Shown in pieces: positions 23,151 to 35,097 of a stretch of DNA of 64,000 nt; position 1 is the first letter of the stretch; every line of letters starts with the position of its first letter. This DNA is from Cryobacterium adonitolivorans (GTDB taxonomy: Bacteria; Actinomycetota; Actinomycetes; Actinomycetales; Microbacteriaceae), in the NCBI RefSeq assembly GCF_004402695.1, contig NZ_SOFL01000016.1, positions 1 through 64,000 on the forward strand. The letters are read 5' to 3'. The notes under the pieces were generated by a model. The model did no database searches. It had not been told where the DNA came from and saw only the letters and a program-made list of their open reading frames with translations. A program made the position numbers and the translations under genes.

Positions 23151-24236
23151 ATGGTGACGTTTGGCATCGAGGAAGAGTACTTCCTCGTCGACCCCCGCAC
23201 CCTGCGGCCGGTCAGCCTGGCCGACACCATCCTGGGCGACCTGTCCCCCCTGGCTCGCTCGCGCGGACTCGTCACCCACGAGTTCCTCGCCTCCCAACTG
23301 GAACGGGCCTCGGCGGTGTTCACCGAATTGGCCGAGGCCGAGGCCGACCTGGCCGGTTTTCGAGGCGAATTGGCCGCGGCCGCCCGGGCCCGTGGAGCAC
23401 TGGCGATCGGAACCGGCACCCCTTTCGACGCCCCGGCGGCGCCGACCCTCACCGACGCGGCCCGGTACCACCGGATCGGCTCCGGGGTGCGCGGAGTCGT
23501 GCGCGACCATCAGATCTGCGCCACGCACGTGCACGTCGGTGTGCCCAGCCGGACGGCCGGGGTGCACGCCCTCAATCGCCTGCGGGTGTGGCTACCCACG
23601 TTGCTGGCGCTGACCGGCAATTCGCCGTTCTGGCGTGGCCGGGACGTCGGCTTCGACTCCTGGCGGGCGGTGATCATGCGCCGCTGGGCAACCGCCGGTT
23701 GCCCGCCGACGTTCGCCGACGCGGACGACTACGACCGGCGCATCCGTCGTCTGGTCGGCGTGGGAGCCACGGTGGATACCGCCACCGTGGCCTGGCATGC
23801 GCGGCTGTCCGAGAGGTATCCCACGGTCGAGGTGCGGGTGGCCGACGCCCAACTCGATCTGGCGCCCACGATATTGCTGGCGGCGTTGGCCCGCGCCCTC
23901 GTCATGACCGGCGCGGCCGCGGGCGAGCGCGGTGCGCCGCCGCCCGCGGTGGAGCCCGAACTGCTCGATGCCGCGCTGTGGCATGCCTCCCGCGACGGCA
24001 TCCGGGGCCGGCTCCTCGATCCCACCACCCGTGAGCTGGCGCCGGCCCGGGTGGTCATTGACGGCCTGCTGCGCTCCGTCGTCGACGCGTTGGAGGACGC
24101 CGGCGACCGGCCCCGCGTGGCCGAGCTGATCGAGCAGGTGTGGCGCACGGGAACGGGCTCCCAGCAGCAGCGGCGGGCGTTTCGCACTGGTGGGCTCGCC
24201 GGTTTGCGAACGCTCGTCGAGTCGTCGTTCAGCTGA
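23151..24236 (+). CDS. Carboxylate-amine ligase, YbdK/GCS2 family
   Basis: This 361-residue ATP-dependent ligase of the glutamate-cysteine ligase 2 family opens with FGIEEEYFLVDPRTLRPVSL, the conserved metal-binding Glu-rich strand. It continues with IGTGTPFD, DHQICATHVHVGVPS, ALTGNSPFWRGRDVGFDSWR and YPTVEVRVADAQLDL. It probably forms a gamma-glutamyl amide, and E. coli YbdK has weak glutamate-cysteine ligase activity. The first start codon ATG 23151 gives the expected N-terminus. No mycothiol or ergothioneine genes are adjacent. Confidence 0.88.
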   Translation: MVTFGIEEEYFLVDPRTLRPVSLADTILGDLSPLARSRGLVTHEFLASQLERASAVFTELAEAEADLAGFRGELAAAARARGALAIGTGTPFDAPAAPTLTDAARYHRIGSGVRGVVRDHQICATHVHVGVPSRTAGVHALNRLRVWLPTLLALTGNSPFWRGRDVGFDSWRAVIMRRWATAGCPPTFADADDYDRRIRRLVGVGATVDTATVAWHARLSERYPTVEVRVADAQLDLAPTILLAALARALVMTGAAAGERGAPPPAVEPELLDAALWHASRDGIRGRLLDPTTRELAPARVVIDGLLRSVVDALEDAGDRPRVAELIEQVWRTGTGSQQQRRAFRTGGLAGLRTLVESSFS

Positions 24237-28732: not shown

Positions 28733-30472
28733 TCAGTCGAGGGTTGCCAGCTGCTCCCCCGCCACGATCATGTCGCCGGGCGCGCGGTGACGCTGCAGCG
28801 TGCCCGACCCGGTCGCCACGATCGTGGTCTCCATCTTCATGGCCTCCATCACCACGACGGGGTCGCCCTCGGCGACCTCGGTACCGTCCGCGACCAGCCA
28901 GGTGATGAGAGTTCCGGCCATCGGCGCGACGAGGCCGGCGGGCGCGGGAGTCGCCGCGTCAGCCGCGGTGGCTACCGGCGCCCCGGCGCGCGTGAGGACG
29001 GATGCGGCTGGTAGCGCTCCGGCGTCGGCGGGCATCCGCAGGGTGTGCCGACGGCCGTCGATCTCGATCCAGCTGTTGGTGATCCCGAGCTCCTCGGGTT
29101 CTGGTTGCAGCGCCTCGGCGGGTATCCGTTCGGCGAAGGAGGTCTCGATCCACTGGGTGTGCACCTTGAGAGCCTCGGCTTCGGCGAAGTCGTCGTCGCG
29201 CAGCACCGCCCGGTGGAACGGCAGCACCGAGGGGATGCCCTCGAGCACGAACTCGTCGAGGGCCCGCCGGGCGCGACGGATCGCGATCTGGCGGGTGGGC
29301 CCGGTGACGATGAGCTTGGCCAGCATCGAGTCGAACCGGCCGGAGACGACCGTGCCGGTCTCGACACCCGAGTCGACCCGGATGCCCGGCCCGGTCGGCG
29401 GCTCGAACCGGGTGATTACGCCGGGGGTGGGCAGGAACCCGCGCGCGGCATCCTCGGCATTGATGCGGAACTCGAGGGAGTGGCCAGTGGGCGCCGGGGT
29501 CGCCTGCACTGACAGCGGCAGGCCCTCGGCGATGCGCAGCTGTTCGGCGACGATGTCGACGCCGGTGGTTTCCTCGGTGACCGGGTGCTCAACCTGCAGC
29601 CGGGTGTTCACCTCGAGGAACGAGATGGTGCCGTCCACGCTGAGGAGGTACTCGACGGTCGCGACGCCCCGGTAGTGCGCCGCGGCGCAGATGTCCGCCG
29701 CCGAGCGGTGCAGGCGGTTCCGCTGCTCGTCGGTGAGGAACGGGGCCGGGGCCTCCTCGACGAGCTTCTGGTTGCGGCGCTGCAGCGAGCAGTCCCGGGT
29801 GCCGAGCACCACGACGTTGCCGTGGCTGTCGCTGAGCACCTGCACCTCCACGTGGCGGGGTGCGTCGAGGAACTGCTCGACGAAGCACTCGCCGCGCCCG
29901 AACGCGGTGACGGCCTCGCGCACCGCGGCGTCGAACTGTTCGGCCACCTCGTCCAGGCTGCGGGCCACCCGCATGCCGCGGCCGCCGCCGCCGAAGGCCG
30001 CCTTGATCACGATGGGTAAGCCGTGCGTCTCAGCGAAGGCGACGGCGTCCGCCGCTGAGGCGACCGGATCGGGGGTGCCGGCCACCAGGGGTGCGCCGAC
30101 GCTGGCGGCGAGCTGGCGGGCGGCGATCTTGTCGCCGAGCAGGTCGATGCTCTCCGGGCTCGGGCCGATCCAGGTGAGCCCGGCCGCGATCACCCGGCGG
30201 GCGAAGGGGGCGCTCTCGGAGAGGAACCCGTAGCCGGGGTGCACGGCGTCGGCGCCGCTTCGCACCGCGACGGTGATGAGCTTCTCGGCATCCAGGTATG
30301 TCGCGGCGGGGCTGTCGCCGTCGAGGCCCCAGGCCTCGCCGGCCAGCCGCACGTGGATGGCGTCGGCGTCGCTGTCGGCGTAAACCGCGACGGTGTCCAG
30401 GCCCCGGTCGGCGCAGGCGCGGATGATGCGCACGGCGATCTCGCCCCGGTTGGCGATCAGGACTTTCTTCAT
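28733..30472 (-). CDS. Biotin carboxylase fused to biotin carboxyl carrier domain
   Basis: This 579-residue protein has a biotin carboxylase at residues 1-445: [20 protein letters not shown], the glycine-rich ATP-grasp loop [39 protein letters not shown], and the [18 protein letters not shown] catalytic strand. A linker follows, then a biotinyl domain at about 505-579 with the biotinylated Lys in MEAMKMET. It would carboxylate biotin with ATP and bicarbonate. No acetyl- or propionyl-CoA carboxyltransferase gene is near. Instead the gene overlaps the fused pxpB-pxpC gene by 4 bases, so its partner is probably that protein. Last gene of the operon. Confidence 0.92.
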
Positions 30473-32130
30473 GGTGTTACCTCTGGGTTGTCGGCGAGCG
30501 AGTACGCGGCGAACGGGCCGATGGGACGAAAACGGATGCGCGCACCCGGCGGAAGTTGGCCGGCGAGCGGCAGGTGGTGGGTGGCGACCGCGCCGATCAC
30601 CGGGTAGCCGCCGGTGAGGGGGTGGTCGGCGAGGAAGAGCACGGGCTGGCCGTTCGGCGGGATCTGGATGGCACCGGAGACGGTGCCCTCGCTGGGCAGT
30701 TCGGCGCCGACGACCCGGGTGAGGGGCTCGCCCTCCAGCCGCAGTCCCACCCGGTTGGAGCGGGCGCTGACCAGCCAGCTCTGCCCGGTGAGGGCATCGA
30801 CGGCGTCGGCGGAGAACCAGTCGGTGCGCGGGCCGAGGATCACGTCGAGCACGACCTCGGTCGAGGCGTCGACGGCATCGACGGCGTCGACCGTGGGCGG
30901 GCCGGGCAGCGCGACCGCGCGGATGCCGCTCGCGGGCGTGCAGACCGGCAGCACGGCTCCGGCGGTCACCGGCGCCGGGCCGAGTCCGGCGAGCACGTCG
31001 GTGGACAGGCTGCCGAGCACCGGGTCCAGGGCGAATCCGCCCCGAACGGCGAGGTAGCTGCGAAGCCCGGAGGTCGGGCGACCCAGCACGAGTTCCTCGC
31101 CAGCGCCGAGGGCGAACGGTCCACCGACGGCGACGCTGCGGGTGCGGGCGCTGCCGCCGTCGGCCCCCGCCGGAGTGCTGATGGTCAGCGGCACCGGGGC
31201 CCCGGTGACGGCGAGAACCTGCTCGCCGCGGGCTCGAAGCCGCAGGCGGCCGAAGGTCAGTTCGAGGGCGGCTTCCCGGCTGGGGTTGCCGACCAGCCGG
31301 TTGGCCGCACGCAGCGACACCGGGTCGAGGGCGCCGGAGGTGGAGACGCCCATGCTCGCGTAGCCGGGCCGGCCGAGGTCCTGCAGCAGCGTCAGCATGC
31401 CAGGGTCGAGGATCTCCAGCCCGTGCTCGGCCTCGGCCGTGGGAGTGCCCGCGGGCGCGCTCGACGACTCACCGGCAGAGTCGGAGGCGGCGGAGACCGA
31501 CACGGCGGCCCGGCCGCCGCCGGAAACCTCCACGAACCGCACCCGGTCGCCCGGCAACAGCAGGGCGGGACGCTCGCGCGACAGGTTCCACATCCGTGCC
31601 TCGGTGGTGCCGATGAGCTGCCAGCCGCCGGGGCTCTCGCGCGGGTAGACCCCGCTGAAGGTACCGGCGAGGGCCACGGAGCCGGCGGGGATGCGGGTGC
31701 GCGGGGAGCTGCGGCGCGGCACATCCAGGGCCGGGTGGCCGCCGGAGAGGTAGGCGAAGCCCGGGGCGAAGCCGGTGAAACCCACCGCGTAGTCCTGACC
31801 GGTGTGCAGCCGCACGACCTCGTCGGCGCTGAGGCCGAGCAGGCCGGCCACCTCGCCCAGGTCTTCGCCGTCGTAGGTCACCGGGATCTCGATGAGGGTG
31901 CCCTCCCCGGCGACGCGGCCGTCCAGGTCGCGGGTGCGCACGGCCCGCACGATCTGCTCGGGCGTCACGGCGCTCGGCCTGTAGAACACCAGCAGGGTGC
32001 GGGCACCCGGGATCAGCTCGCCGGTGCCGGTGATGGGGTCGCTGCTGAGCGAGTCGAACAGCGCCAGGGTGGTCGGCAGGTCGTCGAGCTCGATCAGGAG
32101 GGCGTCGTCGCGAACGGGGAGGAAACGCAT
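30469..32130 (-). CDS. Fused 5-oxoprolinase subunits PxpB-PxpC (KipI-KipA)
   Basis: This 553-residue protein has an N-terminal KipI/PxpB domain (about residues 1-215: [67 protein letters not shown]). A Ser/Ala-rich linker follows, then a KipA/PxpC domain (about 245-550: [69 protein letters not shown]). In Bacillus and E. coli these are separate chains of ATP-dependent 5-oxoprolinase; the same two domains form the carboxyltransferase of urea amidolyase. It sits between pxpA (10 bases upstream) and the biotin carboxylase (4-base overlap). Confidence 0.92.
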
Positions 32131-32140
32131 GCGGCCCGCC

Positions 32141-32926
32141 CTAGGAGGTGCGCGTCTCGCCGGCGCGCGGGGCGAAGGCGGCGATGTCGATGGAGGCTGC
32201 GGTGAGGGCGCGCCGCACGTGCGCGGCCATCTCGGTGGCGCCCGGACTGTCGCCGTGCACGCAGATCGACTCCGCCGACACCCGGATGGTGCTGCCGTCG
32301 ATGGCGGTCAGGGTGCCCTCGGTCGCCAGCTGCACCATGCGGGCGGCCACCTGCTCGGCATCGTGCAGCACCGAGCCGGGCTCCCGCCGCGACACCAGGG
32401 TGCCCTCGGGTGTGTAGGCACGGTCGGCGAAGGCTTCGGTCACGCTGCGGAGGCCCGCGGCATCCGCTGCCCGCAGTACCTCGGAGCCCGGCAGGCCCAG
32501 CACGGCCAGGGTCGGGTCGATCTCACGGATCGCGGTCACCACATCCAAGGCCTGGCGGGCGTCGTGCACGATCGTGTTGTACAGGGCGCCGTGCGGCTTG
32601 ACGTAAGTGACCGTGGTGCCGGCGGCCCTGGCGATACCCTGCAGCGCGCCGACCTGGTAGATCACGTCGGCGACGAGCTCGGCGCTGGAGACGTCCATGT
32701 TGCGCCGGCCGAAGCCGGCCAGGTCGCGATATCCCACGTGCGCGCCGATATACACCCCGGCATCCCGGGCGCCGAGCACGGTCTCGCGGATCACCAGCGG
32801 GTCGCCCGCGTGGAAGCCACAGGCGATGTTGGCGCTGGTGACGATGCCGAGCATCGCCGCGTCGTCGCCGAGGGTCCAGCGGCCGAAGCCTTCGCCGAGG
32901 TCGCTGTTGAGGTCGATGGTGCTCAT
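32141..32926 (-). CDS. pxpA: 5-oxoprolinase subunit PxpA (LamB/YcsF family)
   Basis: This 261-residue cytoplasmic protein has the family opening [20 protein letters not shown], the metal-site-like [50 protein letters not shown] and [19 protein letters not shown]. PxpA takes part with PxpBC in ATP-driven opening of 5-oxoproline to glutamate. The gene is 10 bases from pxpBC and 16 bases from the carrier gene, so all four form one transcript. Confidence 0.94.
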
Positions 32927-32942
32927 GAGGTGCCCTTTTCGG

Positions 32943-34223
32943 TTAGACGGTCAGCAGCGAGAAGATCGGGCCGACGGCCATCACGGCCATGTACCAGGTG
33001 AGCAGCGTGGCGGCCGTTCCGATGACCAGCAGCCAGCGCGGGTAGCGATAACCGTTCATCAGGTCGCCGCGGAACCAGCCGATGTACATGAAGATAGTGA
33101 GGCCGATGGGCAGGATCAGGCCGTTGAATCCGCCGACGAACACCATCAGGGTGGCCGGTGCCGTGCCGATGAGCAGGTAGACGGCCAGCGAGACGACGAT
33201 GAAGACGATGGTGGCGAAGTCGGCGCGGCGCCCGACGAACTTCTTCGAGAACACCGGCAGGAACGACACCGAGGTGTAGGCCGCACCGATGATGCTGGTG
33301 ATCGCGGCGATCCAGAAGATCGCGCCGAAGACGCGCAACCCGAATTCGCCGGCCGCCGCCTGGAACGCCTGGGCGGCGGGGTTGGCCGCGCTTCCCGAGG
33401 TGTCGATGGCCACGCCGCCGGCGACGACACCGAGGATCGCGAGGAACAGCACGTAGCGCATGATGCCGGTTACGAGGATGCCGTTGAACGCCGCACGAGA
33501 AACCTCTTTGACGTGCTCGACTCCGGCGGTGCCGCTGGCCAACAGGCGATGTGCGCCGGCGTAGGTGATGTAGCCGCCGACGGTGCCGCCGACGATGGTG
33601 GTGATGGTGGCGAAGTTGACCTCATCGGGCAGTACGGTCTGGCGCAGCGCATCCCCGATGGGCGGCTGGGAGATGAACGCGACGATCACGGTGAGCACGA
33701 TCATGAGCAGCCCGGCGATGACCACGACCCGGTCGACCACCGCTCCCGCCCGCTTCGCCAGGAAAATCGCGATGGCGAACAGGGCGCTGATCAGCCCGCC
33801 GATCTTCGCATCCAGGCCGGTGAGCACATTGAGGCCGAGGCCCGCGCCGGCGATGTTGCCGATGTTGAACACCAGCCCACCGAGGATGACGAGGAAGGCG
33901 AGCACGAATCCGCTGCCCGGGATTGCGAGGTTGGCCAGCTCCGGCGCACGCTTGCCGCTGACCGTGATCATGCGCCAGATGTTCAGCTGCACGGCGAAGT
34001 CGATCAGGATCGAGGCCAGGATACCGAACGCGAACGCCGACCCCATCTGCGCGGTGAAGGTGGCCGTCTGGGTGATGAAGCCGGGGCCGATGGCCGAGGT
34101 GGCCATCAGGAACAGGGCCCCGATCAGCGCAGAGCGGCGGCTCTTGGCGACGGTGCGGACGCTCTGCTGCTCGGCGGGTTCCACGGATGCGGTGGTGGTG
34201 GTGGGATCGGTCAAGGGGCACAT
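32943..34223 (-). CDS. Nramp-superfamily carrier (YcsG-like)
   Basis: This 426-residue membrane protein has about 11 hydrophobic helices after a 40-residue hydrophilic N-terminus. The first helix has [20 protein letters not shown], the position of the DPGN motif in metal-transporting Nramps, here replaced by GPGF. This fits the YcsG-like branch, which sits with pxpA in B. subtilis. Loss of the metal-binding Asp/Asn suggests it carries an organic substrate such as 5-oxoproline, which is an inference from context. It is the first gene of the operon, divergent from the GntR gene. Confidence 0.85.
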
Positions 34224-34296
34224 CCATTTCGTCGGGGGGAAGGACCCATTGGGTGTCCATCAGCTCGAGGGGACCCGAACCCCACGCAAAGAGCCT

Positions 34297-34333
34297 AATT
34301 GGGTGAACGATGCCCATCCAATTGTTGAACAAT
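34297..34333. promoter_or_regulatory. Likely GntR operators between the regulator and the 5-oxoproline operon
   Basis: ATTGTT-G-AACAAT at 34321-34333 is an exact inverted repeat of the kind bound by FadR-type GntR proteins. It abuts a second, looser repeat at 34297-34323, AATTGGGTG with CATCCAATT. The octamer ATTGGGTG also recurs near 34246 and 34378, so the intergenic region carries three direct copies. Together they mark the control region of the divergent genes. Confidence 0.68.
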
Positions 34334-34428: not shown

Positions 34429-35097
34429 GTGGCGGATCTTGACGAAGCGGACGACGGTAACTCGCGCGCAGACCGGGCCGCTGAGAAGCTCCGCCGGCTG
34501 CTGACCAGCGGCGGCCTCGTGCCCGGCCAGCGCCTGTCAGAGTCCGCCGTCAGCGAGCGCCTCGGCGTCTCACGCAACACCCTGCGCGAAGCCTTCCGAA
34601 TGCTCACGCACGAGCGGCTTCTCGTGCACAAACCGCATGCCGGCGTGTTCGTGGCCGTGCCGTCGCTCGCCTCGATCATCGACATCTACCGGGTGCGCCG
34701 CATGATCGAGTGCCAGGCGCTGCTCTCCGCGCCGGCGCGGCACCCCGCCAGCCGACGGATGCGTGCCGCCGTGGAATCCGCGCAGGCCAGCCGCGACGCC
34801 GACGACTGGATTGCGGTGGGCACCGCGAACATGGAGTTCCACTCCGCGATCGTGGCGTTGGCCGACAGCGACCACCTCGACCGGCTCTACGCGAACATCT
34901 CCGCCGAGCTGCGCCTTGCCTTCTTCCTGCTCGACGACCCGGACTATCTGCACCGCCCGTACGTCGAGCTCAACGTCGCCATGCTGGACCTTTACCTCGC
35001 GGGAGAGGCCGCCGAGGCCGCCGCTGTGCTGGACGACTACCTGTTGAAGTCTGAGCGCACGATCGTCGCCGCCTACGCACGGCAGTTGCCCGCCTGA
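34429..35097 (+). CDS. GntR-family regulator with FCD domain
   Basis: This 222-residue protein has a winged helix at residues about 12-78 (KLRRLLTSGGLVPGQRLSES, VSERLGVSRNTLREAFRMLT, HKPHAGVFV) and an all-helical FCD ligand domain (about 85-215) with RRMIECQALL, NMEFHSAIVALADSDHL and HRPYVELNVAMLDLYLAGEA. The His residues of FHSAI and the later segments fit a metal-assisted carboxylate site, as expected for 5-oxoproline or glutamate sensing. It starts at GTG 34429 and is divergent from the operon it probably represses. Confidence 0.9.
   Translation: MADLDEADDGNSRADRAAEKLRRLLTSGGLVPGQRLSESAVSERLGVSRNTLREAFRMLTHERLLVHKPHAGVFVAVPSLASIIDIYRVRRMIECQALLSAPARHPASRRMRAAVESAQASRDADDWIAVGTANMEFHSAIVALADSDHLDRLYANISAELRLAFFLLDDPDYLHRPYVELNVAMLDLYLAGEAAEAAAVLDDYLLKSERTIVAAYARQLPA

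Follow-up and report, generated by a model that had tools for sequence, protein, structure and literature searches.

A Cryobacterium pxp operon with a probable role in taking up and sensing 5-oxoproline and in its biotin-dependent ring opening

We describe here a four-gene operon and its divergent regulator gene in the first 64,000 nucleotides of a contig from Cryobacterium adonitolivorans (NZ_SOFL01000016.1; this whole stretch is referred to as the window). The genes lie on the minus strand and, read from right to left, encode an Nramp-family carrier, PxpA, a fusion of PxpB with PxpC (PxpBC) and a protein in which biotin carboxylase (BC) is joined to biotin carboxyl carrier protein (BCCP), with gaps of 16, 10 and -4 bases, the last being an overlap of the PxpBC and BC-BCCP genes on the bases ATGA (Table 1). 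An earlier reading, made from the sequence alone, had placed these four frames and their overlap, and frame coordinates and Pfam matches bear it out; it had overlooked the divergent GntR/FCD gene and the operator-like palindrome between that gene and the carrier gene. Because the arrangement is common to five Cryobacterium loci (L006-L010; L numbers are our labels for loci, G numbers for genomes) and because a fused PxpBC and a BC share a locus in 60 of the 80 loci fetched with PxpBC as the query, it is not the product of chance. The nearest relatives of the window PxpBC are Cryobacterium proteins with 78-88% identity.

Table 1. Genes and operator of the operon, with positions in the window
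Feature	Position	Strand	Description
BC-BCCP	28733-30472	-	579 amino acids; proposed ATP-using, biotin-bearing subunit
PxpB-PxpC fusion	30469-32130	-	553 amino acids; carboxyltransferase of urea-carboxylase type; proposed 5-oxoproline carboxyltransferase
PxpA, LamB/YcsF family	32141-32926	-	261 amino acids; proposed hydrolase of activated lactam
Nramp-family carrier, PxpT/YcsG/MumT-like	32943-34223	-	426 amino acids; proposed 5-oxoproline importer
Palindrome ATTGTTGAACAAT	34321-34333	.	exact match to the 13-nucleotide core of the C. glutamicum PxpR operator
GntR/FCD regulator, likely PxpR	34429-35097	+	222 amino acids; divergent; Pfam GntR and FCD; kept in relatives

The BC-BCCP protein has the Pfam domains Biotin_carb_N, CPSase_L_D2, Biotin_carb_C and Biotin_lipoyl. 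When it is compared with E. coli AccC at 14 active-site positions, 13 are identical (K115, K157, E199, H207, K236, E274, E287, N289, R291, Q293, V294, E295 and R336), the exception being H236 = N234. AMKM is the biotinylation motif of BCCP, and the window protein reads EAMKM there, with Lys546 as the lysine. By sequence, the nearest solved structures are those of mycobacterial AccA3 and of an acetyl-CoA carboxylase (5mlk). The 3.67-Mb host genome holds three BC genes, namely a 1,163-amino-acid frame of pyruvate carboxylase size, the window copy and a 593-amino-acid frame, and between the last of these and the genome's single AccD-type gene there are about 6 kb. That gene, the only one with PF01039 (C51:54339-55817, on another contig, where the neighbouring BC-BCCP has its BC domain match at C51:62514-62849), leaves the window BC-BCCP with no AccD-type carboxyltransferase (CT) nearby of the kind that would mark it as an acyl-CoA carboxylase alpha subunit, and the earlier observation that no other CT lies close to the operon holds.

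The PxpB-PxpC fusion consists of two CT domains (Pfam CT_C_D and CT_A_B), as had been read from the sequence, and no ATP-binding domain was found in it by Pfam. Its predicted structure, with a mean predicted local distance difference test score of 85.1 (21 sequences), aligns 476 residues with the fused Thermus protein TTHA0988 (Z 38.0) and also matches K. lactis urea amidolyase with Z 34.0 (307 residues) and urea carboxylase with Z 25.5 (298 residues), as well as M. smegmatis MSMEG_0435-0436 and E. coli YbgJK. Taken together, then, the two overlapping genes do supply the BC, BCCP and CT domains of the urea carboxylase list, as the sequence-only reading proposed, and the predicted CT fold matches that of the K. 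lactis enzyme; what differs from urea carboxylase and urea amidolyase is that the domains are spread over two proteins, that PxpA replaces allophanate hydrolase and that the motifs of the CT C/D domain are not the same. The three urea carboxylases that we aligned do not keep the GFxPG motif of PxpB. In the CT A/B alignment the conserved PxpC positions are mostly conserved in all three as well, which supports a retained CT core; as a test of BC pairing the latter comparison was set aside, since it does not separate BC-linked from unlinked PxpC. Mutation of Lys1605 in K. lactis urea amidolyase is reported to remove one of its two activities (PMC5770610; this source, PMC13274462, PMC5050338, PMC8453981, PMC11315280 and Protein Data Bank (PDB) entry 9YX5 are cited throughout from excerpts). 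Lys1605 appears by eye, in one gappy alignment, to correspond to the invariant Arg139 of PxpB, a correspondence to which we give no weight.

PxpA is an ordinary LamB/YcsF protein with solved homologues (342.5 bits for LamB_YcsF; 378 bits for the PxpA profile NF003814, cut-off 226), and with PxpA, PxpB and PxpC all present the locus is a PxpABC locus by gene content. The fusion scores 246.3 bits with TIGR00724 (cut-off 230.2), and falls below the NCBIfam equivalog cut-offs both for PxpC (182.8 bits against 500) and, narrowly, for PxpB (141.1 against 145.55). The carrier belongs to the wider Nramp family with a Pfam match of just 63.5 bits (cut-off 29.8) and lies outside the metal-Nramp equivalog NF037982 (26.1 bits, cut-off 50). 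Metal Nramps carry the motif DPGN, and the carrier reads SAIGPGF at that position, from which the earlier reading took it to be a possible importer of the substrate. This is plausible, as the homologue PxpT is required by C. glutamicum for growth on 5-oxoproline (PMC13274462), but contested, as both B. subtilis YcsG (PMC10448178) and A. baumannii MumT, which raises manganese (PMC5050338), are reported as manganese importers; we favour 5-oxoproline over manganese as what the carrier may import.

An indication of the substrate comes from the control region. C. glutamicum grows on 5-oxoproline by means of pxpTABC, whose GntR-type repressor PxpR binds 5-oxoproline with a KD of 726 nM, and the promoter is derepressed when the operator 5'-agattgttcaacaatct-3' is mutated or deleted (PMC13274462). 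The 13-base core of that operator, ATTGTTsAACAAT, occurs with zero mismatches between the regulator and carrier genes of the window; it is the single site in the genome, where the pattern read backwards has no match, and the one match in the window compares with none in 100 shuffles. With a divergent GntR gene and the operator ATTGTTnAACAAT upstream of the carrier gene, the operon has the composition of a member of the PxpR regulon, and it resembles C. glutamicum pxpR-pxpTABC further in its protein families and their order (carrier, A, B, C); it is unlike that system in the fusion of PxpB with PxpC and in the overlapping BC-BCCP gene, and the published mechanism for the C. glutamicum enzyme does without biotin. 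Elsewhere, 165 fetched loci (2.66 Mb, window excluded) contain 42 exact copies of the operator, all of which have a frame for GntR, Nramp or PxpA no more than 500 bp away, and five rounds of randomising the loci gave none; as the loci are related by descent, the copies are not independent events. Exact copies are found at 35 of 87 BC-linked PxpABC loci and at 7 of 65 other PxpABC loci, and at 33 of the 56 BC-linked loci that also have a recognisable GntR gene, so that the same operator at both kinds of locus ties the BC-linked kind of operon to 5-oxoproline.

The neighbours of related operons point the same way. A D-glutamate cyclase of the PF07286 kind yields 5-oxo-D-proline, and a homologue of it, searched for with the 'putative hydro-lyase' of a Klebsiella locus (L176), was found at a distance of 6 kb or less in 40 of the 87 BC-linked loci and 11 of the 65 others; a pyroglutamyl peptidase (PF01470) was found near one BC-linked operon of 87, where it precedes pxpA on a Comamonadaceae plasmid (L178), and near none of the 65. 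Neither gene was found beside the window operon. Operator and regulator support our placing of the window operon in a 5-oxoproline pathway.

How often BC genes lie beside pxpBC was surveyed in two phylum samples. Among the Actinomycetota, which were sampled evenly (PF02626 in 35 of 149 genomes; 39 loci fetched), 10 of 29 PxpABC loci have a BC no further than 4 kb from pxpBC, with 14 unlinked and 5 cut by a contig end; in the Pseudomonadota (45 of 150 genomes with PF02626; 42 loci fetched from 63 PF02626 rows after 20 with frames above 1,100 amino acids, taken for urea carboxylases, and L011 had been left out) the count is 13 of 37, with 23 unlinked and 1 cut, which brings the two samples to 23 of 66. 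The figure is 60 of 79 in the set gathered by PxpBC similarity, which is biased (14 unlinked, 5 cut), 4 of 7 among named loci, and 87 of 152 when all sets are joined. Only loci with a PxpA no more than 8 kb away enter these counts, which removed some from each set (1 of 80 in the similarity set, 10 of 39 in the Actinomycetota, three of them urea carboxylases, 5 of 42 in the Pseudomonadota) except the named loci (0 of 7). By our own estimate, based on about three BC genes per 4-Mb genome, chance would give a linkage of about 1% per locus.

The linkage takes several forms: a fused PxpBC with BC-BCCP, as in the window; pxpB-pxpC-BCCP-BC with pxpA further on (L088, L092, L094, L102 and L179); and a BC divergent from pxpB (L089, L093, L096 and L104). 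The loci of the second form, like an S. aureus six-gene operon that has pxpB, pxpC, pxpA, accB and accC among its genes (PMC11315280), resemble the window in having the BC and BCCP genes within a pxp operon but differ in that BC and BCCP are separate and PxpB and PxpC unfused, and in the tree the BCs of L088, L092, L094 and L102 belong to another lineage than the window BC. In a PxpC tree of 104 rows, made by a quick method with only Shimodaira-Hasegawa-like approximate likelihood ratio support and taking in 30 of the 80 query-fetched loci, the BC-linked label needs 7 changes, at least 6 of them forced by well-supported branches. A BC tree was built from 82 full-length BC frames, which remained of 127 once 10 duplicates and 35 close relatives had been removed, with 39 rows labelled as pxp-linked, including those of L127, L142 and L143, which have Pxp frames in their own loci; here the label needs 7 changes, at least 5 of them forced, and the pxp-linked BCs in question are found in different regions of the tree. 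Since a change of label may be a gain or a loss, the number of recruitments is below these totals. Even so, the trees indicate that BCs of different ancestry have been recruited to pxpBC repeatedly, and it is hard to explain why differing BCs should be drawn to the same CT unless the two work together. Single genomes can hold several such genes: rhizobial G149 has two pxp-linked BCs (L011, L142/L183) and G150 three (L021, L127, L143), of different lineages.

The same BC tree bears on the partner of the window protein: its BC separates from the housekeeping copy and belongs to a clade with good support whose 23 rows come without exception from pxp operons, those of Cryobacterium, Rhizobiales and Paracoccaceae. 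A physical association is suggested by PDB entry 9YX5 (released 2025-11-26), described as an M. smegmatis long chain acyl-CoA carboxylase complex with MSMEG_0435-MSMEG_0436 bound, whose chains include AccA3 together with homologues of PxpB and PxpC, chain W being 43-45% identical. AccA3 is the solved relative nearest to the window BC-BCCP, although the biotin subunit in that complex is a housekeeping one, and by analogy the entry suggests a housekeeping biotin subunit as a possible docking partner for PxpBC. In view of the location of the only AccD-type gene next to another BC-BCCP, the separate position of the window BC in the tree, the recurrent linkage and the 9YX5 complex, it is most likely that BC-BCCP works with PxpBC, which would serve as the CT partner for the product of the overlapping gene, and not with a CoA carboxyltransferase encoded elsewhere, the pairing that the earlier reading had named as fatal to its idea.

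We therefore consider it probable that the operon encodes the uptake, sensing and biotin-dependent opening of 5-oxoproline. The scheme is modelled on that of urea carboxylase and allophanate hydrolase, with 5-oxoproline in the place of urea. BC-BCCP, its domains intact, would use ATP and bicarbonate to carboxylate its biotin, and PxpBC, to judge from its homology and its genomic and physical pairing, would transfer this carboxyl group to the nitrogen in the 5-oxoproline ring. PxpA, standing where allophanate hydrolase stands in the urea pathway, would hydrolyse the activated N-carboxy lactam, and the resulting carbamate would lose CO2 to give glutamate. The net chemistry would be that of an ATP-dependent 5-oxoprolinase at one ATP per ring, and as it is BC that spends ATP, the ATP demand of the known reaction would be met without a kinase. 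The earlier reading had set biotin-dependent carboxylation beside the ATP-driven 5-oxoprolinase as a second route; the pairing of BC with PxpBC and the assignment to 5-oxoproline stood, but the two routes need not be alternatives if BC is, as seems likely, the ATP-using step. A PxpR-like GntR protein would sit on the exactly matching operator and presumably be released by 5-oxoproline, and where no BC gene adjoins pxpBC, PxpBC would borrow the housekeeping biotin subunit.

Several points weigh against this scheme. The published model has PxpBC phosphorylating 5-oxoproline, which is stated there as an assumption, and growth of C. glutamicum was restored by a plasmid with pxpABC and no added BC gene (PMC13274462); the host has a BC of its own. 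Deletion of the A. baumannii BC-BCCP abolished growth on urea as the nitrogen source (PMC5050338), and entry 9YX5 shows binding and not carboxyl transfer. No BC is adjacent in 37 of the 60 PxpABC loci of the two phylum samples that are uncut by a contig end, nor in L116 and L180 (Deinococcus gobiensis), which have a fused PxpBC and PxpA; 52 of the 87 BC-linked loci carry no exact match to the operator. That BC and PxpC occur in the same genomes (32 of 34 and 44 of 44) is not informative, since 139 of the 149 Actinomycetota genomes have a BC anyway, and it was dropped as a test of dependence for that reason. Two PF02626 genomes have no BC, but G064 is 62% complete and the locus of G103 (L112) shows no PxpA, so that neither is a clean counter-example. 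We also considered fusion of PxpB with PxpC as an independent predictor of BC linkage. The 80 query-fetched loci divide into the 60 mentioned above, 2 with a fusion and no BC, both cut by a contig end, 15 unfused without BC and 3 undetermined, and the exceptions to the match are L116 and L180 on one side and, with BC but unfused, L193, L100 and the f16 and f24 loci on the other. As only 4 independent pairs in the tree differ, a sign test is void and the predictor was rejected.

The foremost alternative is that PxpBC itself binds ATP and phosphorylates 5-oxoproline before PxpA opens the ring, and that BC-BCCP is a second acyl-CoA carboxylase subunit which merely shares the operon, for instance as a provider of malonyl-CoA during growth on glutamate as carbon source. 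This is the mechanism assumed in PMC13274462, an ATPase of co-purified PxpBC is cited in PMC8453981, and many pxpABC loci have no BC next to them. It is hard to reconcile, however, with a PxpBC made of two CT domains that fold like those of urea carboxylase and in which Pfam finds no ATP-binding domain, with the repeated recruitment of BCs beside pxpBC, with PxpB and PxpC homologues bound to the AccA3 complex in 9YX5, or with the position of the only AccD gene, and on balance we think it unlikely. If biotin is used, the ring that is opened could still be that of some other lactam or cyclic amide, with 5-oxoproline acting as the inducer only. The window PxpC falls in a clade of 29 rows, all BC-linked, apart from the unlinked PxpC of many Actinomycetota, and the sub-threshold equivalog scores of PxpC and PxpB would fit such a divergence; but PxpA is above its own subfamily cut-off, and operator, D-glutamate cyclase neighbours and the one pyroglutamyl peptidase neighbour all point to 5-oxoproline, so that we regard a different lactam as very improbable.

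Urea, which the earlier reading had listed among the compounds to try as substrates, has to be considered because of A. baumannii mumTLUHC (L177), where genes for carrier, PxpA, fused PxpBC and BC-BCCP follow one another as in the window, but which has also an extra gene, mumU, and a LysR regulator instead of the GntR of the window; the place of mumU is held by a D-glutamate cyclase in the Klebsiella locus. The operon was published as one for manganese import and urea carboxylase, with MumC as urea carboxylase and MumH as allophanate hydrolase (PMC5050338). The order of the genes in L177, together with the Klebsiella homologue, whose fused protein has CT and not amidase domains, leads us to take MumH for a fused PxpBC with CT domains and no amidase domain, in which case the published urea scheme would be without a real allophanate hydrolase. 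The mumC mutant could not use urea; the mumH mutant still grew on it (PMC5050338), which counts against a CT being needed for urea carboxylation. The pair of phenotypes fits neither scheme neatly. In C. adonitolivorans, no match to the urease alpha subunit was found in the genome, and none of the four matches to allophanate hydrolase TIGR02713, the best with 151.3 bits against a cut-off of 511.05, extends past position 424 of the 563 in the profile, which makes urea unlikely; the two window proteins score 506.6 and 150.7 bits with urea carboxylase TIGR02712, far below its cut-off of 1303.85. That the window operon carboxylates urea through BC-BCCP and the CT while its carrier imports manganese would agree with the mumC phenotype, with the effect of MumT on manganese and with the domain list, but given these results, a BC that does not group with three full-length urea carboxylases in the tree and an operator that is that of a 5-oxoproline sensor, we find this the least credible reading of all.

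It is tempting to extend the proposal of biotin-dependent opening to the whole PxpABC class, with a BC and its carrier as a fourth component that is dedicated in operons such as this one and borrowed from fatty-acid synthesis elsewhere, and to identify the Pseudomonas putida 5-oxoprolinase with the same complex; we put this forward tentatively, with somewhat more doubt than belief. Of the two components described for the P. putida enzyme, A is a hexamer of dimers (64 and 51 kDa) whose ATPase depends on 5-oxoproline, and B, with 82 kDa, is required for the hydrolysis (PMC8453981). Median masses in our loci are 61.6 kDa for BC-BCCP (n=71), 55.9 kDa for fused PxpBC (n=78, among them some frames with a misplaced start and a small number of CT fusions that lack PxpA), and 23.5, 33.0 and 26.6 kDa for PxpB, PxpC and PxpA, so component A resembles BC-BCCP with PxpBC more than PxpB with PxpC, and 82 kDa would fit a trimer of PxpA; the argument is one of size, and its P. 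putida numbers are second-hand. According to a title from the same laboratory there is a phosphorylated intermediate, which would contradict the extension if the bacterial enzyme behaves likewise. A Pseudomonas aeruginosa plasmid carries PxpA, fused PxpBC and BC-BCCP.

The operon type itself is already known, being annotated in genomes, described in 2016 as mum and present in S. aureus as a pxp operon with BC. The biotin-dependent carboxylation mechanism for PxpABC would be new: our literature search, which covered few subscription journals and no bioRxiv preprints, found no proposal of a biotin-dependent 5-oxoprolinase, although the idea lies near the surface, some PxpC proteins being annotated as 'biotin-dependent carboxyltransferase family protein'. 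PxpABC is described as the commonest prokaryotic type of 5-oxoprolinase (PMC13274462), yet its ATP-using step has merely been assumed, and its B and C subunits are CT domains that lack a carboxyl donor. If BC is that donor, a single mechanism of N-carboxylation followed by hydrolysis would cover both urea and lactams, subunits that go by the names of allophanate hydrolase or Kinase A inhibitor would acquire a role that makes sense, the mum operon of A. baumannii would need re-reading, and biotin status would be tied to glutamate recycling.

Some further observations concern relatives of the operon. A plasmid collection holds 744 records with a PxpBC relative, urea carboxylases included, of which 100 are from Klebsiella; a viral collection gave no relative. 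The Klebsiella locus cited above comes from the K. pneumoniae plasmid pKpN06-SIL and holds both the D-glutamate cyclase and a BC-BCCP; a second BC-like gene nearby (L176:935-2338, a 'biotin/lipoyl-containing protein' of about 53 kDa) is separated from the operon by an IS1 transposase gene and a GntR gene. The Comamonadaceae plasmid operon (L178:2751-10365) runs from DUF969/DUF979, a putative carrier, through pyroglutamyl peptidase, PxpA and fused PxpBC to BC-BCCP, with an exact PxpR-type operator by its GntR gene. In Natrialba magadii (L181), PxpB-PxpC is followed by a 78-amino-acid gene annotated as acetyl-CoA carboxylase, possibly a lone BCCP, and PxpA lies 5.6 kb downstream. Within the window, positions 23151-24236 (+) hold a frame that by eye resembles a carboxylate-amine ligase of the glutamate-cysteine ligase type.

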